This document shows positions 6,780 through 37,384 of a stretch of DNA of 64,000 nt, one piece after another (positions within the stretch are counted from its first letter, which is position 1; each line of letters opens with the position of its first letter). Under the pieces are notes generated by a model. That model was not told the DNA's origin and made no database searches. It saw only the letters and a list, made by a program, of their open reading frames with translations. A program made the position numbers and the translations under genes. Origin of the DNA: Gemmatimonadota bacterium (GTDB lineage: Bacteria; Gemmatimonadota; Gemmatimonadetes; Gemmatimonadales; GWC2-71-9); assembly GCA_009692115.1 (NCBI GenBank), contig SHZU01000002.1, forward strand, positions 248,001 to 312,000, read 5' to 3'.

Positions 6780-7637
6780 TCAAATCGTCGGCAAAACCAT
6801 TCGAACATGGTCGGCAAACGCGCTGACGAGTGCCGCCGGCTGGTCGCTCTCGAATTTCAACGCAATGCTCACACTGGGCAACGAGGGTAGGCCGCTATCC
6901 AGGGGCAGAATGTGCAGATCGGCTGGCACCGCCGTCTGGGTCAGCACCGCAATCGCTTGGCCGGATCTCACCACCGCCGTCAGGCCGGCCACACTGCCGC
7001 TGGCGAAGGCGACCCGGTAGGCTATTCCCGCCCGCTCGAGGCACTTCCGGGCGGCCTGATGGTCGATCGCGTCGCGGTCTCCCAGGGCCAGTTGCAGCGG
7101 CTTCTGGCTCACGGCATTGGATCCGATGGAGCCCACCCACACCAACGGTTCGCGGCGAATGATGGCTTCGCCTTTCTCGTCTTCCGGAAAGGACGTCAGG
7201 GCCAGATCCAATGCATGGGTCTTCAGTCGTTCGAGGAGCCGCGGCGTGGAGGCGCAAAACACCTCCACCATGACCTGCGGGTGCCGCCGCGCAAAACCGC
7301 GGAGCAAGTGGGGCAGGAACACCGCCGCATAGTCGTCCGGACACCCGAAACGGATCGTCCCGGACAAACCCTTGCCGGATAGTTCTGCCATGGCTTCGTC
7401 GTGGTAGCGCAGGATTCGCTGGGCGTGAACTAGGAGTCGCTCGCCCTGGGTGGTCAGGATGACGCCGCGTCCGGTTCGGTTCAGTAAGGACTGACCGACG
7501 ATCTGTTCCAACCGTTTCACCTGCATGCTGATGGCGGCTTGGGTCCGTCCCACCCGGGGAGCGGCCCGGCTGAGTGCCCGGGTCTCCGCGATCACGGTGA
7601 AGGTCCTGAGCAGCTCAATTTCCAGATGAGCCGTCAC
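6780..7637 (-). CDS. LysR-type transcriptional regulator
   Basis: A 285-residue protein with an N-terminal winged helix-turn-helix (residues about 5-65; 'ALSRAAPRVGRTQAAISMQV' is the recognition region) and a periplasmic-binding-protein-like effector domain. The start overlaps the stop of the enoyl-CoA hydratase gene by 4 bp, making it the last gene of the leftward mutase operon. LysR regulators are more often divergent from their targets; a distal position implies autoregulation within the operon. The candidate targets are the paired dyads at 15409-15434 and 15480-15505, eight kilobases upstream at the operon promoter. The ligand is presumably an acid or acyl-CoA of this pathway (inference). 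Confidence 0.9.
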   Translation of the reverse strand: MTAHLEIELLRTFTVIAETRALSRAAPRVGRTQAAISMQVKRLEQIVGQSLLNRTGRGVILTTQGERLLVHAQRILRYHDEAMAELSGKGLSGTIRFGCPDDYAAVFLPHLLRGFARRHPQVMVEVFCASTPRLLERLKTHALDLALTSFPEDEKGEAIIRREPLVWVGSIGSNAVSQKPLQLALGDRDAIDHQAARKCLERAGIAYRVAFASGSVAGLTAVVRSGQAIAVLTQTAVPADLHILPLDSGLPSLPSVSIALKFESDQPAALVSAFADHVRMVLPTI

Positions 7638-8410
7638 GGTGCCAGTCTTTCCGCCACCCGCCGAGCGCTCTCCGGATCCAGGAAACCCTGAACCGTTGCG
7701 GATGCCTCGGCAGCCATGACCTCTTCCAGGCTGGACGACGGCGCCAGCGCCAGGATCCGCTTCAGGTCCGCGACGCGCTGCGCGGGTAACTCTGCAAGGC
7801 GCCGGGCCAAGGTGATCGCCTCAGATCGCAACTGGGCTTCCGGGACGACCTTCCAGAGCAGTCCCCATTCCAGCGCTTGGGCGGCGTCGAATCGTTCGCC
7901 AAAGTAGATCAGTTCACGGGTCTTCTGGGGGCCGATCAACCGTGGAAGCAACGCGGTAACGGCGCCGGTGACGAACAGGCCCAGCTTCACTTCCGGGAAG
8001 AAAAAGCGAGTGCCTTCGGCCGCGATCGCAAAGTCGCAGTTGATGACCCACTCCAATCCGGCCCCGACCGCCCAGCCGTGAATCGCACCGATGACCGGCT
8101 TCTGGCCAAGGACGATGGCGCGGGTGACGTCCTGAATCCGGTCGACGAAGCCGGGGAGCGCCGTATCGCCGGCCAACTGCGACTCGAACTCCTTCAGGTC
8201 GTCACCGGAGCAGAACGCCCGGCCAGCCCCAGTCAGGACGATGGCACGGATCTGGTCATCCTGGTTGGCCCGATTGAGCTCCCGGGTGAGGTCTAGGACC
8301 AACTCCGGCGTGACGGCGTTGAGCCGAGCGGGGCGATTCAGGGTGACGACGCGAACGCCGTCGAACGGGTCGTCGGTGAGTACGGTACTGCCAGTGCGGT
8401 GAACCACCAT
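7634..8410 (-). CDS. Enoyl-CoA hydratase/isomerase family protein
   Basis: A 258-residue crotonase-fold enzyme. ATG 8410 is chosen because it follows an excellent Shine-Dalgarno (GAGGAGG); the longer open frame would overlap the upstream CocE gene. Family features: oxyanion-hole segments 'GAGRAFCSGDDLK' and 'GWAVGAGLEW', and the later 'FPEVKLGLF' with a conserved Glu. Crotonases hydrate enoyl-CoA or isomerise double bonds. In this operon it could interconvert crotonyl-CoA and 3-hydroxybutyryl-CoA made by the mutase, which is inference. It is 10 bp from the CocE gene and overlaps the LysR gene by 4 bp. Confidence 0.88.
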   Translation of the reverse strand: MVVHRTGSTVLTDDPFDGVRVVTLNRPARLNAVTPELVLDLTRELNRANQDDQIRAIVLTGAGRAFCSGDDLKEFESQLAGDTALPGFVDRIQDVTRAIVLGQKPVIGAIHGWAVGAGLEWVINCDFAIAAEGTRFFFPEVKLGLFVTGAVTALLPRLIGPQKTRELIYFGERFDAAQALEWGLLWKVVPEAQLRSEAITLARRLAELPAQRVADLKRILALAPSSSLEEVMAAEASATVQGFLDPESARRVAERLAP

Positions 8411-8420
8411 CCGACCTCCT

Positions 8421-10331
8421 CTAGTGCACGACGGGTAACCACACGGCGGTCGGCTGGGCCTTGGAGCGGAGAATCGTGATTTCCGCCTTCCGGTAGTCCG
8501 CCGGCTTGGCAAAGAAGATGTTCGGCACGAAAGTCTGCGGATTGCGGTCATACAACGGGAACAGGGTCGACTGGATCTGCACCATGATCCGATGCCCGGG
8601 CTTGAAGACGTGGTTCACGTTGGGCAAGTCGAATCGATAGCGCTGCGCCGTATTGGCCGGGATGGCGGTCGGATTCGAAAAGCTTTCCCGGTACCGGCCC
8701 CGGAAAATGTCCATGGAAATTGGCAGCTGATATCCGCCCAGCTGAGGTTGGGCGGGCATTTGGGCCGGGTAGACATCGATCAGCTTGACGACGAAGTCGC
8801 CGTCGCTGCCCGTGGTCATCGCGCGGATATCGGCCACCGGAATGCCTTGGACCCGGACCGGCTCGGTCAGCACCGCCGTCTCATACGCCAGCACATCGGG
8901 ACGGCCGTCCACGAAGCGCTGGTCTTGCACCAGCCATTTGCTCCAGGGGTCATAGGAGGAGCCCAGCGTTTCCGATGTCATGCTGCCAAAGGGATCGCGC
9001 ACCGGCCGGGGCATGAAGGGGACGGGTTTCGCGGGATCGCTGATGTACGGATCGCCGCCGTCCGAGACGGTGGGCTGCTCGAAGGACAAACTGAAGCCGG
9101 TAGTGGTGTATAACGGCGTCATCCCGCCGGCGCAGCCGCGCTCACACACGGTGGGCCAACTCTCAAACCGTTCCCACCGGTCCTCCCCCGTGTTGAACAC
9201 CGTCACCGGCGCCAGCTTGGCCGGAGGCCCGCCGCGGAGGTGCTCGTCGAAGAAGGGCATCAGGATGTCGCGGCGATATTGGATTGCGGTGTTGCCGTTC
9301 CAGCGGAACGGGCCGAGGGCCCAACCGTCGCCGTGGACCTGGATGTGATTCCACGGGCCCAGCACCAGCCAATTGTTGGCCTGGCGACCGGCCGCCTTCA
9401 GGGCCAGCCATGCGTGATTGGCGCCCCACATGTCTTCTTGATCCCAGAGACCCTGCGTCCAGAGCGTGGCGACTGCTCTCGGCGCTCGGGCAACGAGCAG
9501 CTTGTCGAGCGCCTGACTCTCCCAGTACTCGTCGTAGGCCGGATGGGCCATGGTGCGGACCACCCAGGGTAGCTGCTCGAGGCCGTGGACCCGCGCATAG
9601 TCACCGGTCGAGCCCACCCGCAACAGTTCATCATACTTGTCGTAACTGTCGCTCAGCGTCACCGCGCCCGCGCCGCGCTGCCCGGTCTGCATCTGGATAT
9701 AGCCGAGCATGAGGTTACGAAAGGCCCCGTAGTGAAACCAATCATCCCCCATCCACGCATCGACCACCGGACCCTGCGGTACCACGGCCTTGAGCGCCGG
9801 ATGCGGCTCGAGAAGGGCCATAACGGCCGTAAACCCGTCGTAGGACCCGCCGATCATACCCACGTGGCCATTCGTTTCCGGGGTGTTCTTCACCAACCAG
9901 TCAATGGTGTCCCAAGCGTCGGTCGCGTGGTCCACGGACGTGGGATTCGACGGCCCGCGCGGGGGACGGGTCATCACGTAGTCGCCTTCGGATCCGTATT
10001 TGCCGCGGACATCTTGGTGGACCCGGATGTAGCCCGCCTGCACGAGGTAGTCAGGGGTGGCCGAGGCCTCGTAGGGCGTCCGCTCCAATACGATGGCGGC
10101 ATTCTTGGCGCCCTTGGGGATCATGATGATCGTGTGGAGCTTCACCCCGTCGCGCATCGGAATCAAGACGATCCGCTTGGCGTAGGCCAGATCGGGAACC
10201 TTGTTCTTGAAGGCCTTGGGGACATCGTTGAAGGTCTGGCTCACTGCCGCGCGCGCCGGTGTCGCCACCGCGCTGAGGCCGGCGGCCGCGACGAGGCCCA
10301 GGGCGAAGGATCGGATGTGCTGCGGGCTCAT
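8421..10331 (-). CDS. CocE/NonD family hydrolase, secreted
   Basis: A 636-residue protein with a signal peptide ending near 'ATPARA'. It has an Xaa-Pro dipeptidyl-peptidase-type alpha/beta-hydrolase domain with nucleophile Ser163 in 'GGSYDGF', followed by the C-terminal jelly-roll typical of CocE/X-Pro peptidases. Known members cleave cocaine esters, glutaryl amides or acyl-amino bonds. It lies 16 bp after meaB and 10 bp before the enoyl-CoA hydratase gene, inside the CoA operon. It may therefore release the acid substrate of the pathway from an ester or amide outside the cytoplasm. The two other CocE genes in this window (28981 and 30714) are paralogues in a different operon. Confidence 0.88.
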   Translation of the reverse strand: MSPQHIRSFALGLVAAAGLSAVATPARAAVSQTFNDVPKAFKNKVPDLAYAKRIVLIPMRDGVKLHTIIMIPKGAKNAAIVLERTPYEASATPDYLVQAGYIRVHQDVRGKYGSEGDYVMTRPPRGPSNPTSVDHATDAWDTIDWLVKNTPETNGHVGMIGGSYDGFTAVMALLEPHPALKAVVPQGPVVDAWMGDDWFHYGAFRNLMLGYIQMQTGQRGAGAVTLSDSYDKYDELLRVGSTGDYARVHGLEQLPWVVRTMAHPAYDEYWESQALDKLLVARAPRAVATLWTQGLWDQEDMWGANHAWLALKAAGRQANNWLVLGPWNHIQVHGDGWALGPFRWNGNTAIQYRRDILMPFFDEHLRGGPPAKLAPVTVFNTGEDRWERFESWPTVCERGCAGGMTPLYTTTGFSLSFEQPTVSDGGDPYISDPAKPVPFMPRPVRDPFGSMTSETLGSSYDPWSKWLVQDQRFVDGRPDVLAYETAVLTEPVRVQGIPVADIRAMTTGSDGDFVVKLIDVYPAQMPAQPQLGGYQLPISMDIFRGRYRESFSNPTAIPANTAQRYRFDLPNVNHVFKPGHRIMVQIQSTLFPLYDRNPQTFVPNIFFAKPADYRKAEITILRSKAQPTAVWLPVVH

Positions 10332-10347: not shown

Positions 10348-11289
10348 TCAGGTGACCTTCAGTAGTGCCTCGACCGCTTCGTATGGATCACAGGTCTTGT
10401 CCACGACTTGCAGCACCGCGTCGTCCAGCTGCTGCGTGCCCAACCGAAGCGCCAAATCCCGGAGGACCCGCTCCTGGAGGAGGATCTGGATTTCATTCCG
10501 CATCGCGTCCGCATGGCGCCGGCGCGCCTCGCCACTCTCCGCGGCCCAGGCCCGATGCTTGTCGATCGCGGCCATCAGGTCCTCGATGCCGGTTCCGTCC
10601 TTCGCCGAGGTCTTGACCACGGGTGGCTTCCACGCGAGCCGTGAGGCACCGAGGGTCAGCATCTGCGTCAGGTCCCTGACGGTCTCGTCCGCGCCGGGCC
10701 GATCGGCTTTGTTGACCACCAAGACATCGGCAATTTCCATGATGCCGGCTTTGATCGCCTGGATGTCGTCGCCCGCGCCTGGAATCGTCAGCAGGCAGAC
10801 GGTATCAACGACCCGTGACACCTCGATCTCCTGCTGTCCAACCCCGACGGTCTCGACCAAGACGACATCGAAACCCAGCGCATCGAGCAGGCCGACGACT
10901 CGCTTCGTTGCCCGCGCCAGGCCTCCGGATGTGCCCCGGTTCGCCATGCTCCGAATGAACACACCCGCATCCAGGTAGCGATCCCGCATCCGGATCCGAT
11001 CGCCGAGAATGGCGCCGCCGGTGTACGGGCTCGACGGATCCACGGCCACGACCGCGACGCGCTCAGCCGTTTGTCGGTACCCCGCCGTCATCGCCGAGAC
11101 GAGGGTACTCTTTCCGGTCCCAGGAGGCCCGGTGAACCCGACCACGATGGCGCGGCCCGTTTGCGCGTAGGTCGCCCGGATGATGTCGGCCGCTTCGGGC
11201 TCCTCGTTCTCGACGATGGACAGGAGCCTCGCGATATACGCGATCCGGCCCTGCCGGGCGCCCTCGAGCAGCTGCCCGACGTCGTTCAT
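10348..11289 (-). CDS. meaB: MeaB-like GTPase chaperone of the B12 acyl-CoA mutase
   Basis: A 313-residue SIMIBI-class GTPase with Walker A 'GPPGTGKS' at residues 54-61, 'VDPSSP', 'ETVGVGQ' and the base-specificity motif 'NKAD'. MeaB/ArgK/MMAA proteins gate adenosylcobalamin loading and protect the mutase from inactivation. Its presence in the same operon as the split mutase supports adenosylcobalamin dependence. The start overlaps the end of the hotdog gene by 4 bp (ATGA), so the two are likely translationally coupled. The family assignment is firm; which mutase it serves is inferred from position. Confidence 0.94.
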   Translation of the reverse strand: MNDVGQLLEGARQGRIAYIARLLSIVENEEPEAADIIRATYAQTGRAIVVGFTGPPGTGKSTLVSAMTAGYRQTAERVAVVAVDPSSPYTGGAILGDRIRMRDRYLDAGVFIRSMANRGTSGGLARATKRVVGLLDALGFDVVLVETVGVGQQEIEVSRVVDTVCLLTIPGAGDDIQAIKAGIMEIADVLVVNKADRPGADETVRDLTQMLTLGASRLAWKPPVVKTSAKDGTGIEDLMAAIDKHRAWAAESGEARRRHADAMRNEIQILLQERVLRDLALRLGTQQLDDAVLQVVDKTCDPYEAVEALLKVT

Positions 11290-11681
11290 CGCCTAACCAC
11301 GCGCTGCCTGCCAGCGGGCACCACGGCGATGGCGGTGGCCTTGACCACCAGCGCCGGCTCTGCCAGCACGTTGGCGGCTGAATCGGACGGGTCGGCCAAT
11401 TCGATGATCTTGTAGGCGGTGCACTCAAAGGTCCGCGAGGTGGTGCCGACCGCCCGAAGCGTGGCCCGGACTTCGAGGTAGTCCCCGCTCCGCACGGGGA
11501 CGAGAAACTCGCTCTGCATCGCGCGCATCAGCCCTTCGTCGCCATCGTGCCGAATGAGCACCTCCGTCACTGCGTCTCCGAACAGCTGAAGAATGCGCGC
11601 GCCATCCACCAAGCCACCGGCATAGTGACCGTCGGCCGTGGACATCCGGAGCCGAATCAGACTCTCCATTGGAGCACTCAT
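11286..11681 (-). CDS. Hotdog-fold protein resembling 3-aminobutyryl-CoA ammonia-lyase (Kal)
   Basis: A 131-residue single-hotdog protein starting at ATG 11681, one base after the ligase stop. It carries 'LIRLRMS...HYAGGLVDG', 'LFGD', 'IRHDGDEGL', 'VGTTSR' and 'SDSAANVL', which match my memory of Kal from lysine-fermenting clostridia and fusobacteria better than generic thioesterases. Kal removes ammonia from 3-aminobutyryl-CoA to give crotonyl-CoA. Between a ligase and meaB in a mutase operon it could act on 3-amino- or 3-hydroxybutyryl-CoA, or serve as a CoA thioesterase (for example for formyl-CoA). The precise reaction is not readable from sequence. Confidence 0.75.
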   Translation of the reverse strand: MSAPMESLIRLRMSTADGHYAGGLVDGARILQLFGDAVTEVLIRHDGDEGLMRAMQSEFLVPVRSGDYLEVRATLRAVGTTSRTFECTAYKIIELADPSDSAANVLAEPALVVKATAIAVVPAGRQRVVRR

Positions 11682-11682
11682 G

Positions 11683-13206
11683 TTAGGCCGACCTCGAAGC
11701 GAAGACCTGATCCCGGAGCTGGCGCCGGGCAATCTTGCCGATCCCCGTCCTCGGTAGGTCCGGCATGATATGAATCACTTTGGGGCGCTTGTAGCCGGCG
11801 AGTCGCTCGTGGCAAAACGACATCAACTCGACCGCGAGCGTGGTGGCGCCTGGCGACAGCGTCACGAACGCGTGAACCGCCTCGCCCCACCGGTCGTCGG
11901 GAACCCCGACCACGGCCGCCTCGCTCACGTGCGGATGGGTCAACAGCACGTTCTCGATCTCGGTCGGAATGACCGTGATGCCGCCAGTCTTGATCATCTC
12001 TTTGATCCGGCCCTCGAGGATCAGGAACCCCTCCTCGTCAAACCGACCGATATCACCGGTTCGCATCCCGCCCCCTCGCATGACCTGCGCCGTGGCCGAC
12101 TTGTCCTGCCAATAGCCGGCAAACAAGGTCGGGCTCTCGGCGACGATCTCGCCGGATTCCTGCGGCCCCGGCACGCCGCCATCCGGGGTGAGCAGATAGA
12201 GTCGAGCACCGGTCATGGGGCGGCCCACGGTGCCGATCTTTCGGATCTGATCGGACGGGCTCATGACCGTGAGGCAGAGGTGTTCCATCATGCCGTAGAA
12301 CTGAACGAATGCGACGCCGGGCATCCGCTCGATCAAGGCGGCAATCAGCGGTGCCGGCATCGTTTCCGACGCATAAGAAATCGTCCGCAGCGATGGCGGG
12401 ATGGCGGTTGGAGCGACCTCCAGGAGGCGGCGAAGGGTCGTCGGCACCGCGTCGAAGTGAGTGACCTCCCAGATCCGGGTGGCCTCCCATACGGCGGGTG
12501 CGTTGAACTCCGGTAGGATGATATGGGTCGCGCGCACCAGCGTCAGCGGAATCAGGTGCTCCATGCACGACGAGAACAGCGGGAGGAAATGGAGCGTGCG
12601 TTCGCCGTCCCGGAGGCTGAGCTCGAGGCCCATGGTCAGGGCCGCCGCCAGCAGGCTCCCGTGCGTATGCACCGCCCCTTTGGAGCGTCCGGTCGAGCCC
12701 GAGGTAAAGAAAACGACGGCGGGATCAGCTGGAACGACCGGCGTCAGCGAATCGAGCGGCGTCGCCCGGGCCAAGTGGGTCGGGTAGGTATCTTCGAGAG
12801 AAAGCACGCAGTTAACGCCGGCGGCCTCGAGTGCGGTCCCGCACCCCTTGATCGCGGCGGCCTGGGATGGCCCGACGATCAGGACCTTCGGACGAATCTG
12901 CTCGAGCGCGACCAACGCGTCATTCCAGGTCCACCAGTGATCCAGCGGCGAGGTGATCGCGCCTAACATCGGAACCCCGAATAGCACCTCCACGAACTCC
13001 GGCCGGTTCGGGGCCCAATAGGCGACCCGGTCGCCCTTCTCGACGCCGAGCGTCGTCAGCGCCCCCGCCAGGCGGCGGGCCCGATCGTAGACCTCGGCGT
13101 AGCTCCACGCGGTACCGCCGTAGATTACCGCGTCGCGGCTCGGTTCGGACAGCGCCGCGCGCGCCAGCAGGGCATCCAGCCGCGGCGCGCTACCGCGTTC
13201 CGCCAT
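11683..13206 (-). CDS. Acyl-CoA synthetase (AMP-dependent ligase, ANL superfamily)
   Basis: An adenylate-forming ligase of 507 residues from ATG 13206; an alternative ATG at 13227 would overlap the upstream gene by 19 bp. Motifs: 'FFTSGSTGRSKG' P-loop, 'YGMMEHLC' A5 region, 'RTGDIG' with 'LEGRIKEMIKTGG' A8 hinge, and C-terminal catalytic Lys in 'RTGIGKI'. It should activate a carboxylic acid with ATP and CoA. In the known 2-hydroxyisobutyrate pathway a ligase of this class sits beside the mutase and makes 2-hydroxyisobutyryl-CoA. That substrate is my inference here. Gaps to neighbours are 2 and 1 bp. Confidence 0.88.
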   Translation of the reverse strand: MAERGSAPRLDALLARAALSEPSRDAVIYGGTAWSYAEVYDRARRLAGALTTLGVEKGDRVAYWAPNRPEFVEVLFGVPMLGAITSPLDHWWTWNDALVALEQIRPKVLIVGPSQAAAIKGCGTALEAAGVNCVLSLEDTYPTHLARATPLDSLTPVVPADPAVVFFTSGSTGRSKGAVHTHGSLLAAALTMGLELSLRDGERTLHFLPLFSSCMEHLIPLTLVRATHIILPEFNAPAVWEATRIWEVTHFDAVPTTLRRLLEVAPTAIPPSLRTISYASETMPAPLIAALIERMPGVAFVQFYGMMEHLCLTVMSPSDQIRKIGTVGRPMTGARLYLLTPDGGVPGPQESGEIVAESPTLFAGYWQDKSATAQVMRGGGMRTGDIGRFDEEGFLILEGRIKEMIKTGGITVIPTEIENVLLTHPHVSEAAVVGVPDDRWGEAVHAFVTLSPGATTLAVELMSFCHERLAGYKRPKVIHIMPDLPRTGIGKIARRQLRDQVFASRSA

Positions 13207-13208
13207 CC

Positions 13209-13610
13209 TCACCGGCTGGCCTGCCACTGCCGAACGTATTCGACGATCTTGGCCGTCGGGGTGCCCGGGCCGAACACCTCGGCCACGCCAAACGCCTTGA
13301 CCTTCGGAATGTCGGGTGGCGGAAGGATCCCGCCCATCACGACCAGCACGTCCTTGACCGCCTGGGCGCGAATGGCGCGACAGATCTCGTCGGCGAAGTG
13401 CAAGTGGGCTCCCGACAGGATGCTTAAGCCCAGCACGTCAGCGTCCTCTTCCACCACCGTGCGGGTGATCATCTCGGCGGTCTGGAAGATTCCGGTATAG
13501 ATCACTTCCATGCCGGCGTCACGGAAGGCTCGGGCAATGATCTTCGCGCCCCGGTCATGCCCATCGAGTCCCGGCTTTGCCACCACGACACGTAACGGCT
13601 GTTGCTTCAT
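13209..13610 (-). CDS. B12-dependent acyl-CoA mutase, small (cobalamin-binding) subunit
   Basis: A 133-residue stand-alone cobalamin-binding domain. The lower-axial-ligand motif D-x-H-x-x-G is at residues 16-21 ('DGHDRG'), followed by 'SILSG' and 'VMGG', the other two B12-loop motifs. Single-chain methylmalonyl-CoA mutases carry this domain at their C-terminus. A separate small subunit with a ~560-residue large subunit is the architecture of isobutyryl-CoA and 2-hydroxyisobutyryl-CoA mutases. It is 24 bp downstream of the large-subunit gene and 2 bp before the ligase gene, so all three should be co-expressed. Confidence 0.94.
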   Translation of the reverse strand: MKQQPLRVVVAKPGLDGHDRGAKIIARAFRDAGMEVIYTGIFQTAEMITRTVVEEDADVLGLSILSGAHLHFADEICRAIRAQAVKDVLVVMGGILPPPDIPKVKAFGVAEVFGPGTPTAKIVEYVRQWQASR

Positions 13611-13634: not shown

Positions 13635-15326
13635 TTAGTAGACGATGGGCCCGCGATAGGTACCGAACACCTCGCGGAGTACATCGCACATCTCTCCCAC
13701 GGTGGCTTGCGCTTTCACGGCCCGCGCCACGGCCGGCATCACGTTGTCGCCGGACGTGGCGGCCTGCTTGATGTCCTTAAGCGCGCTCGTCGTTTCGGCT
13801 TGGCCGCGCGAGCGCCGGATGCCCTGGGTCCGCTTGATCTGCCGTTCGCCGAGCCCCGGGTCGAGTTCGAACGGGTCGAACGGCAGCGCCTCCTCGGGGT
13901 CAATATGGACGTTCATCCCGACCATGAACTCCTTCTGGGTCTCCAAATCGTGCTGGAAAGCCGCCGCGGAGTCGGCAATGTGCCGTTGGATGAAGCCGTC
14001 CTCGATCGACTGGACCATGCCGCCGCGATCCAGGACCTGCCGAATCAACGCCTCGGCCTCTTCCTCGAGGCGGTTCGTCAGGTTCTCGACGTAGTAGGAG
14101 CCACCCAGCGGATCGACGACGTCGGCCACCCGGGTCTCGAGCGCCAGGATCTGTTGGGTGCGCACCGCGATCTTGATCGCGCCCTCGGAGGGAATCTGAA
14201 ACGCCTCGTCCTTCGAGTTGGTGTGGAGCGACTGCGTCCCGCCGAGGATCGCCGCGAGCGCTTGGATCGCGGTCCGCGCGATGTTGTTGTCCGGCTGCTG
14301 CGCGGTCAGGCTGACCCCAGAGGTCTGACAATGGGCCCGCATCATCCAGGATCTCGGATCCTTGGTGCCGACCCAGTCCCGCATGATCCGCGCCCACAGC
14401 CGGCGCGATGCCCGGAGCTTGCAGATCTCCTCGAAGAAATCGTTCTGGATGTTCCAGAAAAACGAAATCCGCGGCGCCACCGCATCCGCCGATAGGCCGC
14501 GTGTCACGGCCTCGGTCACGTAGCAATGCCCCGCGGCGAGCGTGAAGGCGAGCTCCTGTACCGCGTTGGCGCCCGCATCGCGGATGTGATAGCCCGAGAC
14601 GCTCACCGGGTTGTAGCGCGGCATCGTCTTGGCCGCATACTCCATCGTGTCGACGACCAGGCGCACCGCCTGGGCCGGCGGGTAGATGTACTCGTTTTGG
14701 GCGGTGTACTCCTTCAGAATATCGTTCTGACAGGTGCCGGTGATCTTCTCCTTCGCCACGCCTTGCTCTTGGCAGACCTGCTGATACATGCCGATCAGGA
14801 CGAACGCCGAGGCATTGACTGTGTACGAGGTCGACACCTCGTCCAGCGGAATGTCCGCCATCAGCAACCGAACATCGTCGATCGTGTCCACGGCCACGCC
14901 GATCTTGCCGATTTCAGGCACCGCAATCGGATGATCGGAGTCGTAGCCCAGTAGCGTCGGCAGATCGAAGTCGGTCGACAATCCCGTCTCGCCGTGGGCG
15001 AGCAGGTACTTGTATCGCCCGTTGGTGTCTTCCGCGGTCCCGAACCCCGCCACTTGGCGGAGCGTCCACGGGCGGGCGCGGTGCATCGTGGCGTGCACGC
15101 CGCGGGTAAACGGGTACTCACCGGGAAGACCGATCACCTTGGCGGCATCGCCGCTCGGGACATCGGCGGCCGTGTAGACATCGTCAATCGGAAGGCCCGA
15201 AAGCGTCGTGAACGCTTCCTTCCGCTTCGGCAGCCGGTCGAGACTCGCGGCGAGGGTGGTGCGCTTCCAGGTCGCGGCATCGGTCGATGCCTCACCGTGC
15301 GACTTCGGCTCGGGCGGTTGGCTCAT
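13635..15326 (-). CDS. B12-dependent acyl-CoA mutase, large subunit; 2-hydroxyisobutyryl-CoA mutase-like
   Basis: A 563-residue TIM-barrel subunit lacking the B12 domain. ATG 15326 follows a GAGGAG ribosome site. Aligned by eye to Propionibacterium methylmalonyl-CoA mutase, Tyr89 is replaced by Val92 ('RQVAGF'), Ala116 by Asp119 ('GLSTDFDLP') and Arg207 by Gln210 ('AQNEYIYPP'), while His244 is kept as His247. Methylmalonyl-CoA mutase needs the Tyr/Arg pair; isobutyryl-CoA mutase has Phe/Gln; 2-hydroxyisobutyryl-CoA mutase of Aquincola has Ile/Asp/Gln. Val/Asp/Gln therefore points to a 2-hydroxyacyl-CoA mutase. It is the first gene of the operon, downstream of a mirrored promoter and dyad. Simple automated annotation would probably call it methylmalonyl-CoA mutase. 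Confidence 0.88.
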   Translation of the reverse strand: MSQPPEPKSHGEASTDAATWKRTTLAASLDRLPKRKEAFTTLSGLPIDDVYTAADVPSGDAAKVIGLPGEYPFTRGVHATMHRARPWTLRQVAGFGTAEDTNGRYKYLLAHGETGLSTDFDLPTLLGYDSDHPIAVPEIGKIGVAVDTIDDVRLLMADIPLDEVSTSYTVNASAFVLIGMYQQVCQEQGVAKEKITGTCQNDILKEYTAQNEYIYPPAQAVRLVVDTMEYAAKTMPRYNPVSVSGYHIRDAGANAVQELAFTLAAGHCYVTEAVTRGLSADAVAPRISFFWNIQNDFFEEICKLRASRRLWARIMRDWVGTKDPRSWMMRAHCQTSGVSLTAQQPDNNIARTAIQALAAILGGTQSLHTNSKDEAFQIPSEGAIKIAVRTQQILALETRVADVVDPLGGSYYVENLTNRLEEEAEALIRQVLDRGGMVQSIEDGFIQRHIADSAAAFQHDLETQKEFMVGMNVHIDPEEALPFDPFELDPGLGERQIKRTQGIRRSRGQAETTSALKDIKQAATSGDNVMPAVARAVKAQATVGEMCDVLREVFGTYRGPIVY

Positions 15327-15373
15327 GTCACGCTCCTCTTCTCCCAAAACGGGGGTCGGACGGCAACTCGGGT

Positions 15374-15402
15374 AAGGTAGCGAAAGGGGTCGACAGGATC
15401 AA
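15374..15402 (-). promoter_or_regulatory. Promoter of the mutase operon
   Basis: Read leftward: -35 TTGATC (15402-15397), a 17-bp spacer and -10 TACCTT (15379-15374). The -10 is 47 bp upstream of the mutase start. Its mirror-image partner has identical -35 and spacing, which supports function despite the weak -10. Confidence 0.65.
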
Positions 15403-15408
15403 ATGCTA

Positions 15409-15434
15409 CTAATACCTCTTATGAGAGGCATTAG
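15409..15434. promoter_or_regulatory. Operator dyad 1 (mutase-operon side)
   Basis: A 26-bp near-perfect palindrome of form CTAAT-N16-ATTAG with inner CCTCT...AGAGG, centred between 15421 and 15422. It lies 6 bp upstream of the leftward -35 element, a position suited to an activator. The binding protein is unknown; the LysR at 6780 is the only regulator in the linked operon. Confidence 0.8.
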
Positions 15435-15479
15435 AAAGTGTTGTACGTCGGTTCTCAGGGTGAGCGGATGTCAGCGCGT

Positions 15480-15505
15480 CTAATGCTTCACATAAGAGCT
15501 ATTAG
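15480..15505. promoter_or_regulatory. Operator dyad 2 (lyase side)
   Basis: A second 26-bp CTAAT-N16-ATTAG dyad, less symmetric inside than dyad 1, centred between 15492 and 15493. It lies 6 bp upstream of the rightward -35 element, mirroring dyad 1. Confidence 0.8.
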
Positions 15506-15511
15506 TAGCAT

Positions 15512-15540
15512 TTGATCCTACCGCCTGGTTTCGCTAGCTT
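15512..15540 (+). promoter_or_regulatory. Promoter of the ThDP lyase gene
   Basis: Read rightward: -35 TTGATC (15512-15517), a 17-bp spacer and -10 TAGCTT (15535-15540), 41 bp before the start codon. Exact mirror position of the leftward promoter. The poor -10 suggests dependence on an activator. Confidence 0.65.
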
Positions 15541-15581
15541 GTCCGCGGTGCCGCTCAGACCCACCGCTGTCGGAGGTTCTC

Positions 15582-17309
15582 ATGTCTGCTCGACCTGCGA
15601 CGGTCGCTGCGACGATAGCCCGCTTCATCGCAGGACAAGGCGTCGGCCGGGTCTACACGTTGCCCGGCTCGCATGTGAAGCCGATCTGCAGTGAGTTGGC
15701 CCGGCTTGGAATTCGCATCGTCTCGGCGCGACACGAATGCGCCGCGGTCCACATGGCGCACGCTGAAGCAGACCTCACCGGACGAATCGGGATCGCTTTG
15801 GTGACGGCCGGACCGGGCCTTACCAATGCCGTCACGGGAATCGCGAGCGCCTATCTGTCGCGGACGCCGCTCCTGGTCATGTCGGCGCGGGTACCCGATC
15901 CGCAGGCGGGCATGGGAGCCCTCGAGGAGGTTCCGCAGGCTGACCTCGTACGTCCGGTGTGCCGTTACGTTCGGGAAATCTCCGAGGCGCGTCACGTACT
16001 GCCCGGCCTGCACATGGCCGCGACGATCGCGTTGGGCAGCGACGGACCACCGGGACCCGGGTACGTCGACTTCGCCCCGAACCTCCTCGCGCAGGAGATG
16101 CCGGACTGGTATCTCGACCGGCATTGGTTCATGCCGGTGGTCCGCCCTGCCCGCTTGCCTCACCATGATAGCATCGCGCTTGCCGCGCAACTTCTTCGCA
16201 GTAGTCGGCGGCCGCTCGCAATCGGCGGCCGGGGAGCGCTGGGAGCTGGAGCGGTGTTAGAGAGGTTCCTGCAGGCCTCCGGGTGCCTGTATTTGGACAC
16301 CAGAGAGAGCCGCGGTGTGGTCCCTCCGGACAACCCTCACGCCGTACCCGCGCTGCGGGCCCGCGCGATGGCCGAAGCGGACTTGGTGATTACCCTTGGC
16401 AGACGCCTGGATTTCGAGCTCGCCTACGGCTCGGGTGCTGTCTTCTCCGAATCCGCGCGCTTCATTCGAATCGGTCGCAGTGCGGAGGAGCTGTCTGAGA
16501 ACCGATGTGGCGACGTCGCCGTCTGCGCCGACGTGGACCGAGCCCTGGAGGCTCTCGCGAATTCCGGCGCTAGACCGGCGGAGGCCGATACGGCCTGGAA
16601 GGATGAGCTTATCGCTGCGAACGTCGAGAAGACGCGCATCAAGACGCCGAGCCTGACCACGCGGCCGCCGGGCGCCGACGGGCGGATGCATCCGCTGACG
16701 CTCATCGAGGCGATCAACCGAATCATTGACAGCGACACGATCTGCATCGTGGACGGCGGAGACATCCTGTCGTTCGCTCGGATTGGGCTTCGGACGTGGA
16801 CCTATCTTGACCTGGGGCCGTTTGGATGTCTGGGGTCAGGGGTACCGTACGCCGTGGCTTCCGCTCTGGCGTTCCCTTCTCGGAGGACCATTGCCCTGAT
16901 CGGCGACGGGGCATTCGGGTTTGGCGCGATGGAAGTCGAAACCGCAGTACGCACGAGCGCTCGGGCGCTCTTCGTGGTCGCGAACAACGACGCCTGGAAC
17001 ATCGAACGCCAAGATCAACTGATGAAGTATCCGGACCAGGATCTCGGGACTGAGCTATCGCCGTGCCGCTACGATCTGCTCGCCAGGTCGCTGGGGGCCC
17101 ACGGGGAGCGCGTGGAGCGGGCCGTGGACCTGGCGGACGCGCTCGAGCGAGGCCTTGCCAACCTGCCGGCGGTCATCGATGTCGCGGTGACCCGCGATGC
17201 CGTGTCACCCGATACGAGGAGTGGACTGGCAAACGTCCCGCCGCTTCACGCAACCCAGTCCTGGGACGACGCGGAGCGACGGATGTTGGAGCGGCCTCCG
17301 CTCGGATGA
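15582..17309 (+). CDS. ThDP-dependent enzyme, probable 2-hydroxyacyl-CoA lyase
   Basis: A 575-residue protein of the acetolactate synthase/oxalyl-CoA decarboxylase/HACL superfamily, starting at ATG 15582 after GGAGG. Glu52 ('HE') is the cofactor-activating glutamate. The ThDP motif begins 'GDGAFGFG' and ends 'NND'. Ile474-Glu475 in 'AWNIERQDQ' corresponds in position and context to Ile492-Glu493 of the Actinomycetospora lyase, where Glu493 is the catalytic acid/base. A C-terminal extension of about 35 residues recalls that enzyme's lid. The known lyase cleaves 2-hydroxyisobutyryl-CoA to acetone and formyl-CoA. Mirrored promoters tie it to the mutase operon. Alternatives are a glyoxylate carboligase or acetolactate synthase-like enzyme; no regulatory-subunit gene is adjacent. 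Confidence 0.72.
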   Translation: MSARPATVAATIARFIAGQGVGRVYTLPGSHVKPICSELARLGIRIVSARHECAAVHMAHAEADLTGRIGIALVTAGPGLTNAVTGIASAYLSRTPLLVMSARVPDPQAGMGALEEVPQADLVRPVCRYVREISEARHVLPGLHMAATIALGSDGPPGPGYVDFAPNLLAQEMPDWYLDRHWFMPVVRPARLPHHDSIALAAQLLRSSRRPLAIGGRGALGAGAVLERFLQASGCLYLDTRESRGVVPPDNPHAVPALRARAMAEADLVITLGRRLDFELAYGSGAVFSESARFIRIGRSAEELSENRCGDVAVCADVDRALEALANSGARPAEADTAWKDELIAANVEKTRIKTPSLTTRPPGADGRMHPLTLIEAINRIIDSDTICIVDGGDILSFARIGLRTWTYLDLGPFGCLGSGVPYAVASALAFPSRRTIALIGDGAFGFGAMEVETAVRTSARALFVVANNDAWNIERQDQLMKYPDQDLGTELSPCRYDLLARSLGAHGERVERAVDLADALERGLANLPAVIDVAVTRDAVSPDTRSGLANVPPLHATQSWDDAERRMLERPPLG

Positions 17310-17352
17310 AAAGCCCGGTCGCTCTGCGCTACCCACTATTGCGAGGACTCCA

Positions 17353-18231
17353 ATGCTCCAGATCGACAAGCTCACCCACGTCTATCCGAACGGCACCCGT
17401 GCGCTCGACTCGGTGTCGATCGATGTCCCGCGCGGCATGTTCGGGCTCCTCGGCCCAAATGGCGCCGGCAAGTCGACGCTGATGCGCTGCATCGCCAGCT
17501 TGCAGGTGCCCACGTCGGGGGCGATCCGCTTCGACTCGATCGATGTCCTCGCGACACCCGACCTGCTGCGGCGCACCCTCGGCTACTTGCCCCAGGACTT
17601 TGGCGTCTACCCACGGGTCTCGGCCTACGAGATGCTCGATCATCTGGCCGTGCTCAAAGGCTATGGAGCCCGGGGGGAGCGGCGCGAGGTCGTTGAAGCG
17701 CTGCTGCACCAGGTCAACCTGTTCGATGTGCGGCAGAAGGCGCTGGCCGGCTTTTCCGGCGGCATGCGGCAGCGCTTTGGCATCGCCCAGGCCCTGATCG
17801 GCCAGCCGCAGCTCCTCATCGTCGATGAGCCGACGGCGGGTCTCGATCCGGAAGAAAGCAACCGGTTCTTGAACCTGCTCGCCGAGACCGCCGAAAACAT
17901 CGTGGTGATCCTCTCGACCCACATCGTGCAGGACGTGACGGACCTGTGCCAGCGGCTCGCGATCATCGCCGGCGGTCGCATCGTGCGCGCAGGCGCACCT
18001 CTCGATCTCATCGCGGAGCTCCGGGGCCGGGTCTGGCGCAAGGCGATCGGGAAGTCCGAGCTCGAATCGCACCGGGCGGCCCACGAGGTCATCGCCACCC
18101 GGCTGTTTGGCGGCCGCACCCTGATCCACGTGCTGGCGGACGAGCATCCCGGCGAGGGCTTCGAGCCCGCTGAAGGCGGGCTCGAGGACGTGTACTTCTC
18201 GACGCTGTCGCCCAAGCGCCGCGCGGCTTGA
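17353..18231 (+). CDS. ABC transporter ATP-binding protein
   Basis: A 292-residue ABC-2-type ATPase. Walker A 'GPNGAGKST' at 34-42, signature 'FSGGMRQR', Walker B 'LLIVDEPTAGLDP', and an H-loop His in 'STHIV'. The start at ATG 17353 follows GCGAGG. It pairs with the downstream permease/M1 fusion, 9 bp away, as the energising subunit. The 43-bp gap after the ThDP gene leaves open whether they share a transcript. Confidence 0.92.
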   Translation: MLQIDKLTHVYPNGTRALDSVSIDVPRGMFGLLGPNGAGKSTLMRCIASLQVPTSGAIRFDSIDVLATPDLLRRTLGYLPQDFGVYPRVSAYEMLDHLAVLKGYGARGERREVVEALLHQVNLFDVRQKALAGFSGGMRQRFGIAQALIGQPQLLIVDEPTAGLDPEESNRFLNLLAETAENIVVILSTHIVQDVTDLCQRLAIIAGGRIVRAGAPLDLIAELRGRVWRKAIGKSELESHRAAHEVIATRLFGGRTLIHVLADEHPGEGFEPAEGGLEDVYFSTLSPKRRAA

Positions 18232-18240
18232 GGCCCTGAC

Positions 18241-21200
18241 ATGCTACGTCACGTTGCGGGCTTCGAGCTGCGCTACCAGCTCAAGTCGCCGGCATTCTGG
18301 ATCACTAGCCTGATCTTCTTCCTGCTGACCTTCTCGCTTGTCGGGGCCGACAATCTCCAGATCGGGTGGGGCGGCCAAGTGGTCCGAAACTCGCCCTATA
18401 CGGTCGCGCTGGTCTCCTTCGTCATGGTGCTGTGGGCGATCTTCATCGTGACGGCCTTCGTGGCGAATGTCGTGGTGCGCGACGACGAGACCCAGTTCGG
18501 TCCGATCATCTACGCGACCCCGCTCTCGCGGTTCGACTACTTGTTCGGGCGCTTTACCGGTGCCTTCGGGGCCGGGTGCCTCGCGTTCCTGAGCGTGCCG
18601 CTCGGCATCATGATCAGCGCCGCGATGCCGTGGCTCGATCCCGAGACGGTCGGTCCCTTCCGGCTCGGCGACTACCTGTACGTGTACTTCGTCCTCTGCG
18701 TGCCGACGCTATTCATCATGAGCGCGGGTCTCTTTGCTTTGGCAACGGCGGCGCGTTCGATGTTCGCCACCTACATCGGGGCGCTCGTCGTCATCATGCT
18801 CTACCTCGTGACGGTGATTTACTTCCGGCGAGCTGAGTATGCTTCCACGGCCGCGTTGCTCGATCCGTTCGGTCTGTCGGCCCTGCGCGCGGTGACCCGG
18901 AACTGGACCCCGAGCGAGCGGAACGTGCTGTTGCCGCCGATGCAGGGGGCGATGCTCCAGAACCGCGCGTTCTGGCTCGCCGTGAGTTTTGCCCTGCTCG
19001 GGTTCGCGTGGCGGGTGTTTCGCCCGGAGCGCCGATGGCTGGCCAAGGGGCGCAAGGTGGACCGCGGGGCGCAGGGCGTCGGGCCGGCGGTTGCGCCGGC
19101 GCGCCGGCTTCCCGCCGGACCGTCTTCGCATCGCGACTTGGGTTGGGGGCCCCTCGCCGCGTTGACCCGATTCGACATGCTGACCGCACTTCGGAGCCCC
19201 GCCTACGTGATCATGCTCGGCATCGCGTTCATCAACGCGATCGTCGGGTTGTGGCTGGCCGGCGATGACTCGGTGAGCACGATCTTCCCGGTCACCCGCG
19301 TCATGATTCAGACCCTCATCGAGCAGTTTACGGTCATCCCGCTGGTTATCGCCGCCTACTACGCTGGTGAACTCGTCTGGCGCGACCGTGAGCTACGGGT
19401 GCACGAGATCGTCGACGCGACGCCGGCGTCGGATGTGGCGTTCTTCGTGCCGAAGATCCTCGCAATCGCGATCGTGCTGTTCTCGACGGCGCTCATCAGC
19501 GTCGCCGCCGCGGTCTCGGTCCAGGCGCTCAAGGGCTACACCACGTTCGAATTCAGCCACTACCTCATGTGGTATGTGCTGCCGTGGCTCGTCAACATGG
19601 TGCTCTACGCCGTGCTCGCGGTGTTCGTCCAGACCCTCGTGCCGCACAAGTTCGTGGGTCTCTTGGTCATGCTGCTCTTCATCGTCGCGCAGCTGACGCT
19701 CGCGGGGCTCGGTTTCGAGCATAACCTCTACCGTTATGGCTCGACCCCGCCGGTGCCGCTCTCGGACATGAACGGCCAGGGCCCGTTCGCCGGGTATGCC
19801 GCCTGGTTCCACGCGTACTGGACGGCGGGCGCCACGGTCCTCGCCGTACTCGCCTACGCGCTGTGGCGACGGGGCGTGTCTGCGCCACTGCTCGTCCGCC
19901 TGAAGGGTGTCCCGGCCCGGCTGGCCGGGCCGGCGGGGTGGATCATGACCACCGCCGCCGTCGTCATGGCGGCCCTCGGCGGGTTCATTTACTACAACAC
20001 CAACATCGTCAACGAGTATCGGACCTTCCTCGACAGTGAGCGGTGGCTCGCGGCGCACGAGAAGGCGCGAGCCGCCTTTGCATCCGCACCGCAGCCGCGG
20101 ATCACGGACGTGACCCTCGCGATCGACATCTTTCCAGAGGAGCCCAGGGTCGTCACCCGCGGCACCTACGTCATCGAGAACCGCACGGACTCGGCATTGA
20201 GCCAGGTGCACGTGTCATGGCCGCACGCGCTCGAGGTGAAGTCATTCATCGGCCCGATCGACGTGGGCGCGCTCCAGATGCGCTCGCTCGAGGTCACCGG
20301 CGCCCGCCTGACGCGCGAGCTGCCGGATATGAACTACCGGATCTATACGTTCGACGTACCCCTCGCACCCGGCAAGCGGCGCGAGATCCGCTTTGAGACC
20401 GTCCGCGAGCAGCACGGGTTCCGCAACTCGAACAACGAGACCCGGGTCGTCGCGAACGGGACCTTCCTCGATAACCTGCAGATCACGCCCTCGCTCGGGG
20501 TGGACCGCCAGTATCGGATCAGCGGTCGCTCCAAGCGCCGCAAGTACGGGCTGCCGGATGATCTCGGACCGGCGAAGCTCGAGGATGAAGGCGCCCGGGG
20601 ATTCCATTACCTCAGGCGCGACAGCGACTGGGTCAACGCCGACCTGACAGTGTCCACGGTCGCGGATCAAACGATCCTGGCGCCCGGCTACTTGGTCGAC
20701 ACCAAGGTCGCTGACGGCCGGCGGGTCGCGCACTTTCGCACCGAGGCGCCGATCCACAACTTTTTCTCGATCCAGTCGGCCGCGTACGCGGTCCGCGAGG
20801 ATCGCTGGAAGGACGTGGCGCTCGCGGTCTACCATCATCCTGCGCACGCCTACAACGTCGAGGGCATGATCGCCCTCATGAAGGAATCGCTGGACTACTT
20901 CTCGGAGAATTTCAGCCCGTTCCAGTTCCGGCAGCTCCGGGTCGTCGAGTTCCCAGCCTACCGCAATTTCGCCCAGTCGTTCCCGGGTACCATCGCGCAC
21001 TCGGAGGCCGCCGGCTTCATCTTCGACACGTCGAGACCGGAGAACGCGGACTTGGTCACCTACATCACCGCGCATGAAACCGCCCACCAGTGGTGGTTTC
21101 ACCAGGTCGTGAGCGCCGATATGCAGGGCATGACGGTGCTCTCGGAGACACTCGCGCAGTACTCGGCGCTCATGATCATGGAGCGGCTCTATGGGCCGGA

Positions 21201-21879
21201 GAACATCCGCAGATTTCTCAAACGGTCGCTCGACGGCTATTTGAACGGCCGGGGTAGCGAGGCGGTCGAGGAGTTGCCGCTCCAGCGCGTCAACGGCCAG
21301 AGCCAGGCGTACATCGGGTACCAGAAGGGGGCGCTGGTCATGTACCTGCTCAAGGACCAGATCGGCGAGGCGGCGGTCAACCGCGCGCTGCAGGCTCTGC
21401 TCCGTGACTTTGCGTTCAAGGGCCCGCCGTATCCACGGTCGCTCGAACTGGTGAGTCGCCTGCGGGCCGAGGCGGGGCCCGAGCATCAGCAGCTCATCAC
21501 GGACCTGTTTGAGAAGATCACGCTCTACGATCTCAAGGTCGCCAGCGCGCGTTCCAGCCAGCGGCCGGATGGCAAGTGGAACGTGGAGATTGAGGTCGAG
21601 GCCCGGAAGCTCTACGCGGACGGCAAGGGCGTCGAGACCGAGGCCGTTCTCGACGAAGCCTTCGACATTGGAGTATTCGCGGCCGAGCCGGGCACGACGG
21701 GCTACACCAAGGCGAGCGTCTTGTCGGTGGAACGAGGGCGCGTGCGCAGCGGTCGGCAGACGCTCACCGTCGTCGTCGATCAGGAGCCCAAGTTCGCGGG
21801 GGTCGACCCCTACAACAAGTACGTGGACCGCCATCCCAGCGACAACGTGGCGAGGGTGGAGAGTGCCGTGGTGCCTTAG
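18241..21879 (+). CDS. ABC transporter permease fused to M1-family metallopeptidase
   Basis: A 1212-residue two-part protein. Roughly residues 1-590 contain two sets of transmembrane helices of the ABC-2 permease type. The remainder is periplasmic and ends in an M1 aminopeptidase-like domain with zinc motif H945-E-T-A-H949 and a third ligand Glu969. The gap between HExxH and this Glu is 19 residues rather than the usual 18, because of an extra Trp in 'HQWWF'. The fusion is a known but poorly characterised architecture in several phyla. Role is unknown; the peptidase may process peptides exported or sensed by the permease. It is co-oriented with its ATPase (9-bp gap). Confidence 0.9.
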   Translation: MLRHVAGFELRYQLKSPAFWITSLIFFLLTFSLVGADNLQIGWGGQVVRNSPYTVALVSFVMVLWAIFIVTAFVANVVVRDDETQFGPIIYATPLSRFDYLFGRFTGAFGAGCLAFLSVPLGIMISAAMPWLDPETVGPFRLGDYLYVYFVLCVPTLFIMSAGLFALATAARSMFATYIGALVVIMLYLVTVIYFRRAEYASTAALLDPFGLSALRAVTRNWTPSERNVLLPPMQGAMLQNRAFWLAVSFALLGFAWRVFRPERRWLAKGRKVDRGAQGVGPAVAPARRLPAGPSSHRDLGWGPLAALTRFDMLTALRSPAYVIMLGIAFINAIVGLWLAGDDSVSTIFPVTRVMIQTLIEQFTVIPLVIAAYYAGELVWRDRELRVHEIVDATPASDVAFFVPKILAIAIVLFSTALISVAAAVSVQALKGYTTFEFSHYLMWYVLPWLVNMVLYAVLAVFVQTLVPHKFVGLLVMLLFIVAQLTLAGLGFEHNLYRYGSTPPVPLSDMNGQGPFAGYAAWFHAYWTAGATVLAVLAYALWRRGVSAPLLVRLKGVPARLAGPAGWIMTTAAVVMAALGGFIYYNTNIVNEYRTFLDSERWLAAHEKARAAFASAPQPRITDVTLAIDIFPEEPRVVTRGTYVIENRTDSALSQVHVSWPHALEVKSFIGPIDVGALQMRSLEVTGARLTRELPDMNYRIYTFDVPLAPGKRREIRFETVREQHGFRNSNNETRVVANGTFLDNLQITPSLGVDRQYRISGRSKRRKYGLPDDLGPAKLEDEGARGFHYLRRDSDWVNADLTVSTVADQTILAPGYLVDTKVADGRRVAHFRTEAPIHNFFSIQSAAYAVREDRWKDVALAVYHHPAHAYNVEGMIALMKESLDYFSENFSPFQFRQLRVVEFPAYRNFAQSFPGTIAHSEAAGFIFDTSRPENADLVTYITAHETAHQWWFHQVVSADMQGMTVLSETLAQYSALMIMERLYGPENIRRFLKRSLDGYLNGRGSEAVEELPLQRVNGQSQAYIGYQKGALVMYLLKDQIGEAAVNRALQALLRDFAFKGPPYPRSLELVSRLRAEAGPEHQQLITDLFEKITLYDLKVASARSSQRPDGKWNVEIEVEARKLYADGKGVETEAVLDEAFDIGVFAAEPGTTGYTKASVLSVERGRVRSGRQTLTVVVDQEPKFAGVDPYNKYVDRHPSDNVARVESAVVP

Positions 21880-36309: not shown

Positions 36310-36386
36310 GCGGGGCGGGTCGCGCGAAGCCGAGTATTCGGATACATTCTCGTCTCCCGATTTCTGCCAGTGGGATCCGCCATCCA

Positions 36387-37358: not shown

Positions 37359-37384
37359 CTCCAACATTCACCTGGATCGTTCAC

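Follow-up and report, generated by a model that had tools for sequence, protein, structure and literature searches.

An AcHACL-family lyase with glutamate in place of Gln128 in a bacterial gene island that may serve the breakdown of α,α-dialkyl amino acids

The closest described relative of the enzyme considered here is AcHACL, the ThDP-dependent 2-hydroxyacyl-CoA lyase of Actinomycetospora chiangmaiensis (PDB 7PT1-4). In the excerpts of PMC8760513 drawn on here, AcHACL is a reversible enzyme whose Gln128 touches the acyl oxygen and, together with His44 and Thr88, holds a water molecule on the tertiary hydroxyl; OfOXC carries E121 at the Gln128 position. According to the excerpt of PMC13327070, Q128 is conserved in all HACL, SAAT, AHAS and POX enzymes; in the table rows listed there, OXC has glutamate instead. 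Two kinds of gene cluster offer further points of comparison. In the mutase-HCL clusters (HcmAB/RcmAB, Aquincola tertiaricarbonis, Kyrpidia tusciae), large and small B12 subunits, a MeaB-type chaperone and a ligase share one operon. Desulfococcus biacutus and Desulfosarcina cetonica have an acetone cluster that combines a ThDP enzyme with a B12 acyl-CoA mutase; this ThDP enzyme has 685 aa and is 22% identical to AcHACL, and the excerpt of PMC7176365 mentions no homologue of 3-aminobutyryl-CoA ammonia lyase (KAL). For α,α-dialkyl amino acids, the excerpts of PMC10169451 and PMC7782822 describe dialkylglycine decarboxylase (DgdA) as acting on Aib (2-aminoisobutyrate), a main peptaibol residue, with isovaline also consumed; that decarboxylase and an iron monooxygenase are the only two Aib breakdown routes named in the excerpt of PMC7782822.

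Within the 64,000-nucleotide stretch of Gemmatimonadota DNA analysed here (the window), an earlier note had likened one open reading frame to the actinobacterial lyase, and family scores bear out this homology. The protein reaches 672.5 bits against NCBIfam NF058623 (actinobacterial-type 2-hydroxyacyl-CoA lyase; curated cut-off 600 bits, whole protein), the next family scoring 325. Its best PDB match is AcHACL (7pt1; 470 bits, E 1e-139; 45% identity), and since the next different enzyme scores 201 bits, this match lies far beyond chance. The window lyase belongs, with practical certainty, to the AcHACL sequence family. Acetolactate synthase was considered as an alternative identity and ruled out by family scores. 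Contamination was also rejected as the source of the gene: the contig that carries it is 379 kb long, the genome is 97% complete with 1.5% contamination, and genomes of the same family contain orthologues of the operon.

At E<=1e-90 this is the only lyase copy among the 395 genomes of the phylum sample. The genome collection holds 206 relatives, and only four of the best 80 come from Actinomycetota (L004, L051, L061 and L069); nearly all of the remaining 76 are from Pseudomonadota. Its distribution is not an actinobacterial one, and a lyase of this family outside Actinobacteria is ordinary, so that the significance which the earlier note attached to a non-actinobacterial host falls away, while its AcHACL homology, Ile-Glu pair and lid stand. 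A ligase of a different type adjoins the lyase at most of the 80 loci, and the Actinomycetospora and Pseudonocardia lyases adjoin HCL, in agreement with the description in the excerpt of PMC7176365. Comparison of the lyase genes of the window and Peristeroidobacter soli JW-3 over 568 codons gave 68, 49 and 271 differences at the three codon positions, which indicates that the protein is under purifying selection.

Residues were mapped onto AcHACL with the numbering fixed on E493. The motif AWNIERQDQ, in which the catalytic Ile-Glu pair had been recognised from the sequence, spans residues 471-479 and aligns exactly, with I474 at I492 and E475 at E493. Further matches are H31 (H44), T75 (T88), L114 (L127), R259 (R273), R400 (R417) and D544 (D561). 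W472, N473, I474, E475 and D478 are identical in all 81 compared relatives, a set comprising AcHACL together with the proteins encoded at the 80 retained loci and placed beside the window lyase. The window lyase differs from AcHACL in having Arg241 for Gln255, Ser547 for the CoA/lid residue K564 and Glu115 for Gln128. The last two substitutions had been missed before, as had the gene neighbourhood.

An AlphaFold2 model of the ligand-free lyase, based on 27 aligned sequences (pLDDT 85.4, pTM 0.86), is predicted to adopt the AcHACL fold: all 16 best Foldseek matches were AcHACL chains (TM 0.93), compared with 0.80-0.83 for the next enzymes. The structural comparison that the earlier note had proposed as a check did not contradict its reading; I474 and E475 are carried on a modelled helix (473-482). 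At the C-terminus, predicted helices 543-547 and 556-569 enclose residues 548-561 of pLDDT <50, a helix-loop-helix layout matching the AcHACL lid as described in the excerpt of PMC8760513, and the PDB alignment with AcHACL extends to residue 566. On this alignment and model (543-569), the AcHACL-like lid suggested earlier is present, its loop at low confidence.

The position of AcHACL Gln128 is occupied by glutamine in 79 of the 81 compared relatives and by glutamate in two, from P. soli JW-3 (L003) and a Streptosporangiaceae MAG (L004), whose NF058623 scores are 658 and 668 bits, respectively. The three Glu115-type lyases form one clade (SH-aLRT 100) with a long L004 branch, in a quick tree search that kept the Gln128/Glu115 column in. 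The protein is a confirmed AcHACL-family enzyme and, by virtue of Glu115, a new variant. Because Gln128 is described as conserved in all HACL, the activity name 2-hydroxyacyl-CoA lyase is not claimed for it. Glu115 and the gene neighbourhood together speak for an amino analogue rather than a plain 2-hydroxyisobutyryl-CoA lyase; what counts against the amino analogue is that glutamine to glutamate is a small change, also found in OXC.

Divergent from the lyase run genes for the two mutase subunits, a ligase, a KAL-like protein, MeaB, an S15/CocE hydrolase, a crotonase and a LysR regulator, in that order (Table 1). No consensus promoter was found in the gap between the divergent genes.

Table 1. 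Features of the lyase locus, in window coordinates (G119, genome of a sister genus; G367, another genome of the window's family)
Feature	Coordinates	Strand	Remarks
ThDP-dependent acyl-CoA lyase, AcHACL family, Glu115 variant	15582..17309	+	ATG start, 575 aa
Catalytic helix 473-482 with I474-E475; predicted C-terminal lid about 539-570	within lyase 15582..17309	+	
Intergenic gap, divergent lyase/mutase genes	15348..15581	.	
AdoCbl acyl-CoA mutase large subunit, HCM-like	13635..15347	-	start probably nearer 15326
B12-binding small subunit of mutase	13209..13610	-	
AMP-forming acyl-CoA ligase, FadD-like, PF13193 C-terminal domain, Glu-His in A4 motif	11683..13227	-	
Hotdog protein homologous to KAL	11286..11732	-	start probably near 11681
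MeaB-type G-protein chaperone for mutase	10348..11289	-	
S15/CocE-NonD family hydrolase	8421..10331	-	beside the operon also in P. soli and G119
Enoyl-CoA hydratase (crotonase)	7640..8413	-	79% identity to the crotonase directly upstream of the G119 mutase
LysR-type regulator	6783..7637	-	74% identity to the G367 LysR divergent from dialkylglycine decarboxylase
ABC transporter ATPase	17350..18231	+	listed ORF from 17197; homology from near 17340-17350
ABC permease fused to M1 peptidase domain (ABC-M1)	18241..21879	+	G119 orthologue directly before dialkylglycine decarboxylase

The mutase has its best PDB match in HCM (4r3u; 576 bits), with methylmalonyl-CoA mutase at 456, and is 47% identical to HcmA. 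In the 4r3u alignment it has valine at HcmA Ile90, aspartate at Asp117 and glutamine where methylmalonyl-CoA mutase has arginine, a comparison that left out the mutases near L031 and L050. Since HCM likewise has Asp117, the mutase taken by itself is compatible with a hydroxy substrate. Relative to the mutase-HCL clusters, the window shares the operon layout and Asp117 but differs by the valine for Ile90, by a FadD-like rather than PaaK-like ligase and by the added KAL homologue and crotonase. A further mutase-like gene (L097, G000:C2:346837-348504), 47% identical to the window mutase, contains one in-frame TGA and may represent either a broken copy or two genes side by side.

The ligase is not of the PaaK/HCL type, in contrast to the HCL-type ligase of L011 with its PF14535 domain. 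A Glu-His pair in the A4 motif, whose position depends on the alignment (two alignments lie one gap apart), is common to the ligases of the window, P. soli (two), G119, G367 and L004, and is absent from all 20 sampled ligases beside Gln-type lyases and from the five best PDB ligases.

With the KAL of Fusobacterium vincentii, whose gene is followed by that of a BKACE/Kce homologue, the KAL-like protein has 54% identity. It keeps the motifs HY-G-LVDGAR and DGDEGL, and it retains motifs in common with the beta-alanyl-CoA ammonia lyase 4mtu. Against NF052388 (3-aminobutyryl-CoA ammonia lyase; cut-off 160 bits) it scores 140.7 bits, compared with 196.7 for the F. vincentii protein, and is therefore not filed as KAL; it probably works like one. 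Unlike the KAL of lysine fermentation, it sits with a carbon-skeleton mutase and not directly with Kce. Relatives on Rhizobium and Streptomyces plasmids (L103, L104, L105) were rejected as a functional guide because they sit in ectoine-like assembly clusters. In these small ectoine-synthase/adenylation/carrier-protein clusters, some of the KAL-like hotdog domains lie inside longer proteins whose annotation is alanine racemase or holo-ACP synthase. The 2.1-Mb PLSDB entry NZ_CP084075.1 ("Fusobacterium vincentii plasmid"; L102), which carries the KAL-BKACE pair, looks like a mislabelled chromosome.

Farther out, the window encodes a beta-lactamase-family protein, S9, S15, S58/DmpA (21879-22970) and penicillin-amidase genes, an M55 D-aminopeptidase (39520-40416) and a DAO-family oxidase (5475-6773). 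The M55, S58/DmpA and DAO-family genes suggest the use of peptides with unusual residues; peptidase richness around the island may be usual for the lineage. A 3-hydroxyacyl-CoA dehydrogenase followed by a beta-keto acid cleavage enzyme (BKACE) occupies 36297-38347, an arrangement as in carnitine-type degradation; KAL has BKACE as its partner in lysine fermentation. The window genome has a formate-tetrahydrofolate ligase.

The island recurs in other genomes. In P. soli, likely of another phylum than the window genome, a 52-kb region holds orthologues of the lyase (83% identity), mutase (81%), small subunit (83%), MeaB (73%), two ligases (63 and 71%), two KAL-like proteins (63 and 67%), S15 hydrolase (63%), ABC ATPase (78%), ABC-M1 (64%) and LysR (60%). 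A second set of mutase genes lies in the same region, accompanied by a gene for 3-hydroxyacyl-CoA dehydrogenase. In G119, one 59.7-kb contig carries consecutively penicillin amidase, crotonase, mutase (86-88% identical to that of the window), small subunit, ligase, KAL-like protein, MeaB, ABC and ABC-M1; a search of the whole G119 genome found no lyase (best match 27%). A 3.7-kb contig of G367 spans the end of the mutase large subunit, small subunit, ligase, KAL-like protein and MeaB, and this genome (84% complete) had no lyase match at E<=1e-90. The KAL-like gene is present in three of the 102 genomes of the window's family (window, G119, G367), in two of 298 in the phylum sample and in one of 150 in the family of P. 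soli. Near the 80 lyase loci it occurs once, at the P. soli locus with its Glu115-type lyase.

A clue to the substrate comes from dialkylglycine decarboxylase, a CoA-independent PLP enzyme with the same presumed substrates. In G119 its gene lies in the same island, directly after ABC-M1; the protein scores 751 bits against 1d7r, the next different molecule reaching 222. G367 also has the gene, divergent from that of a LysR regulator, and its protein is 81% identical to the G119 one. At only one of the 80 lyase loci is it found, that of L004 with a Glu115-type lyase, 2.3 kb from the lyase gene (474 bits to 1d7r; 54% identity to the G119 protein). The surroundings there (glutamine-synthetase-like, C26-hydrolase, ALDH, decarboxylase and RNR-small-subunit-like genes, below NCBIfam equivalog cut-offs where scanned) are an amine context. 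In Actinomycetospora L051, which has a Gln-type lyase, a 60% decarboxylase is on a separate stretch and not beside the lyase. No decarboxylase orthologue was found in the window genome or in P. soli (best 37% in both). The four island genomes thus have either the lyase without the decarboxylase (window, P. soli) or the decarboxylase without the lyase (G119, G367), a pattern that comprises few genomes, one of them (G367) incomplete, while L004 and L051 have both.

From the homologies, residues, fold, synteny and gene presence or absence observed here we infer all substrates and the direction of what follows. The island probably serves α,α-dialkyl amino acids (Aib, isovaline). Our best explanation overall, which we hold at slightly less than even confidence, is a Glu-clade AcHACL-family lyase within an Aib/isovaline island, cleaving the same 2-aminoacyl-CoA as the mutase. 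Action of the lyase on a 2-aminoacyl-CoA is a fair-sized possibility that is still in some doubt, and a complete CoA-dependent pathway of ligase, B12 2-aminoisobutyryl-CoA mutase, 3-aminobutyryl-CoA ammonia lyase and ThDP 2-aminoacyl-CoA lyase, the last giving formyl-CoA and acetone imine, is proposed tentatively. In this pathway, the hydrolases encoded nearby would probably free Aib and isovaline from peptides of the peptaibol kind, and the ligase would convert Aib to 2-aminoisobutyryl-CoA. The B12 mutase, with MeaB, would turn this thioester into 3-aminobutyryl-CoA, from which the KAL-like protein would release crotonyl-CoA and ammonia, and crotonase and dehydrogenase would take crotonyl-CoA on to acetyl-CoA. 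In the lyase, ThDP C2 would attack the thioester of the same 2-amino-2-methylacyl-CoA and the C-C bond would be broken as in AcHACL, with Glu475 acting as proton shuttle like Glu493 and Glu115, directly or via water at the 2-substituent, favouring ammonium over hydroxyl. The products would be formyl-CoA and acetone imine, the latter yielding acetone and ammonia. A lyase that cleaves 2-aminoacyl-CoA to formyl-CoA and a ketone would do the job of dialkylglycine decarboxylase in a CoA-dependent way. We know of no enzyme that uses such chemistry on a 2-aminoacyl-CoA, and in the open-access literature we found no mention of 2-aminoisobutyryl-CoA or its enzymes, nor an Aib-CoA route in print. It also counts against the Aib reading that both mutase and lyase would act on one thioester, and that the second mutase of P. 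soli is 55-59% identical to HcmA types.

The island could instead house an ordinary HACL that splits 2-hydroxyisobutyryl-CoA (or a C5 analogue) into acetone and formyl-CoA beside an HCM making 3-hydroxybutyryl-CoA, with the KAL-like protein as a dehydratase or thioesterase and Glu115 near-neutral. The NCBIfam equivalog score above its cut-off, the retained I474, E475, L114, H31 and T75, and a mutase that is nearest to HCM and keeps Asp117 all agree with such an enzyme, and lyases beside HCL and a B12 mutase do occur, at L074 (HcmA type, 76%) and L011. Yet the window ligase is not HCL, the KAL-like gene accompanies only the P. soli lyase among the 80 loci, Glu115 is limited to three genomes among those compared, and in G119 the operon is found together with the decarboxylase and no lyase. 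We consider an ordinary HACL possible but rather doubtful.

The adjoining lyase and mutase genes and the reversibility of AcHACL (PMC8760513, excerpt) would also suit a synthase that joins acetone (or butanone) and formyl-CoA to a 2-hydroxyacyl-CoA, which the mutase would convert to a 3-hydroxyacyl-CoA, as proposed for D. biacutus and D. cetonica. Such a synthase would leave the ligase, the KAL homologue and the peptide hydrolases superfluous. Moreover, G119 and G367, which should make acetone by the decarboxylase, are without the lyase, and both lyase genomes are without the decarboxylase; a synthase that consumes acetone would predict the reverse, and we judge this reading unlikely. A third reading draws on the glutamate found at the Gln128 position in OXC and supposes that Glu115 makes the lyase decarboxylate a 2-oxoacyl-CoA. 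It is highly improbable: the score against TIGR03254 (oxalyl-CoA decarboxylase) is 208 bits with a cut-off of 739, Leu114 replaces the preceding OXC tyrosine, the Ile-Glu helix stands in place of OXC Tyr483, and no oxalate genes are among the identified neighbours.

Outside the Glu115 clade, too, AcHACL-type lyases occur beside a mutase. A Burkholderiales MAG (L074:3478-11704) unites the two known 2-hydroxyisobutyrate routes in a single stretch, which encodes the mutase small subunit, an HCL-type ligase, MeaB, HcmA (76% identical to that of A. tertiaricarbonis) and a Gln-type lyase. A Desulfohalobiaceae MAG, of an anaerobic lineage, has the lyase by mutase and HCL in two near-identical copies (L011:6180-11830 and L009), the lyases having an odd residue make-up in the tree. 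These loci suggest that lyase and mutase may cooperate on 2-hydroxyisobutyrate elsewhere.

If the Aib/isovaline pathway is correct, neither the mutase nor the lyase reaction would have a precedent in biochemistry: B12 carbon-skeleton mutases would gain an amino substrate and ThDP lyases an amine product. The Aib-CoA route would keep all Aib carbon as acetyl-CoA. Run in reverse, the joining of formyl-CoA and an imine by a ThDP enzyme would be a one-carbon route to α,α-dialkyl amino acids. The island itself would then be a bacterial tool, and a marker, for the consumption of fungal peptaibols, a counter-move to the antibiotics of Trichoderma.
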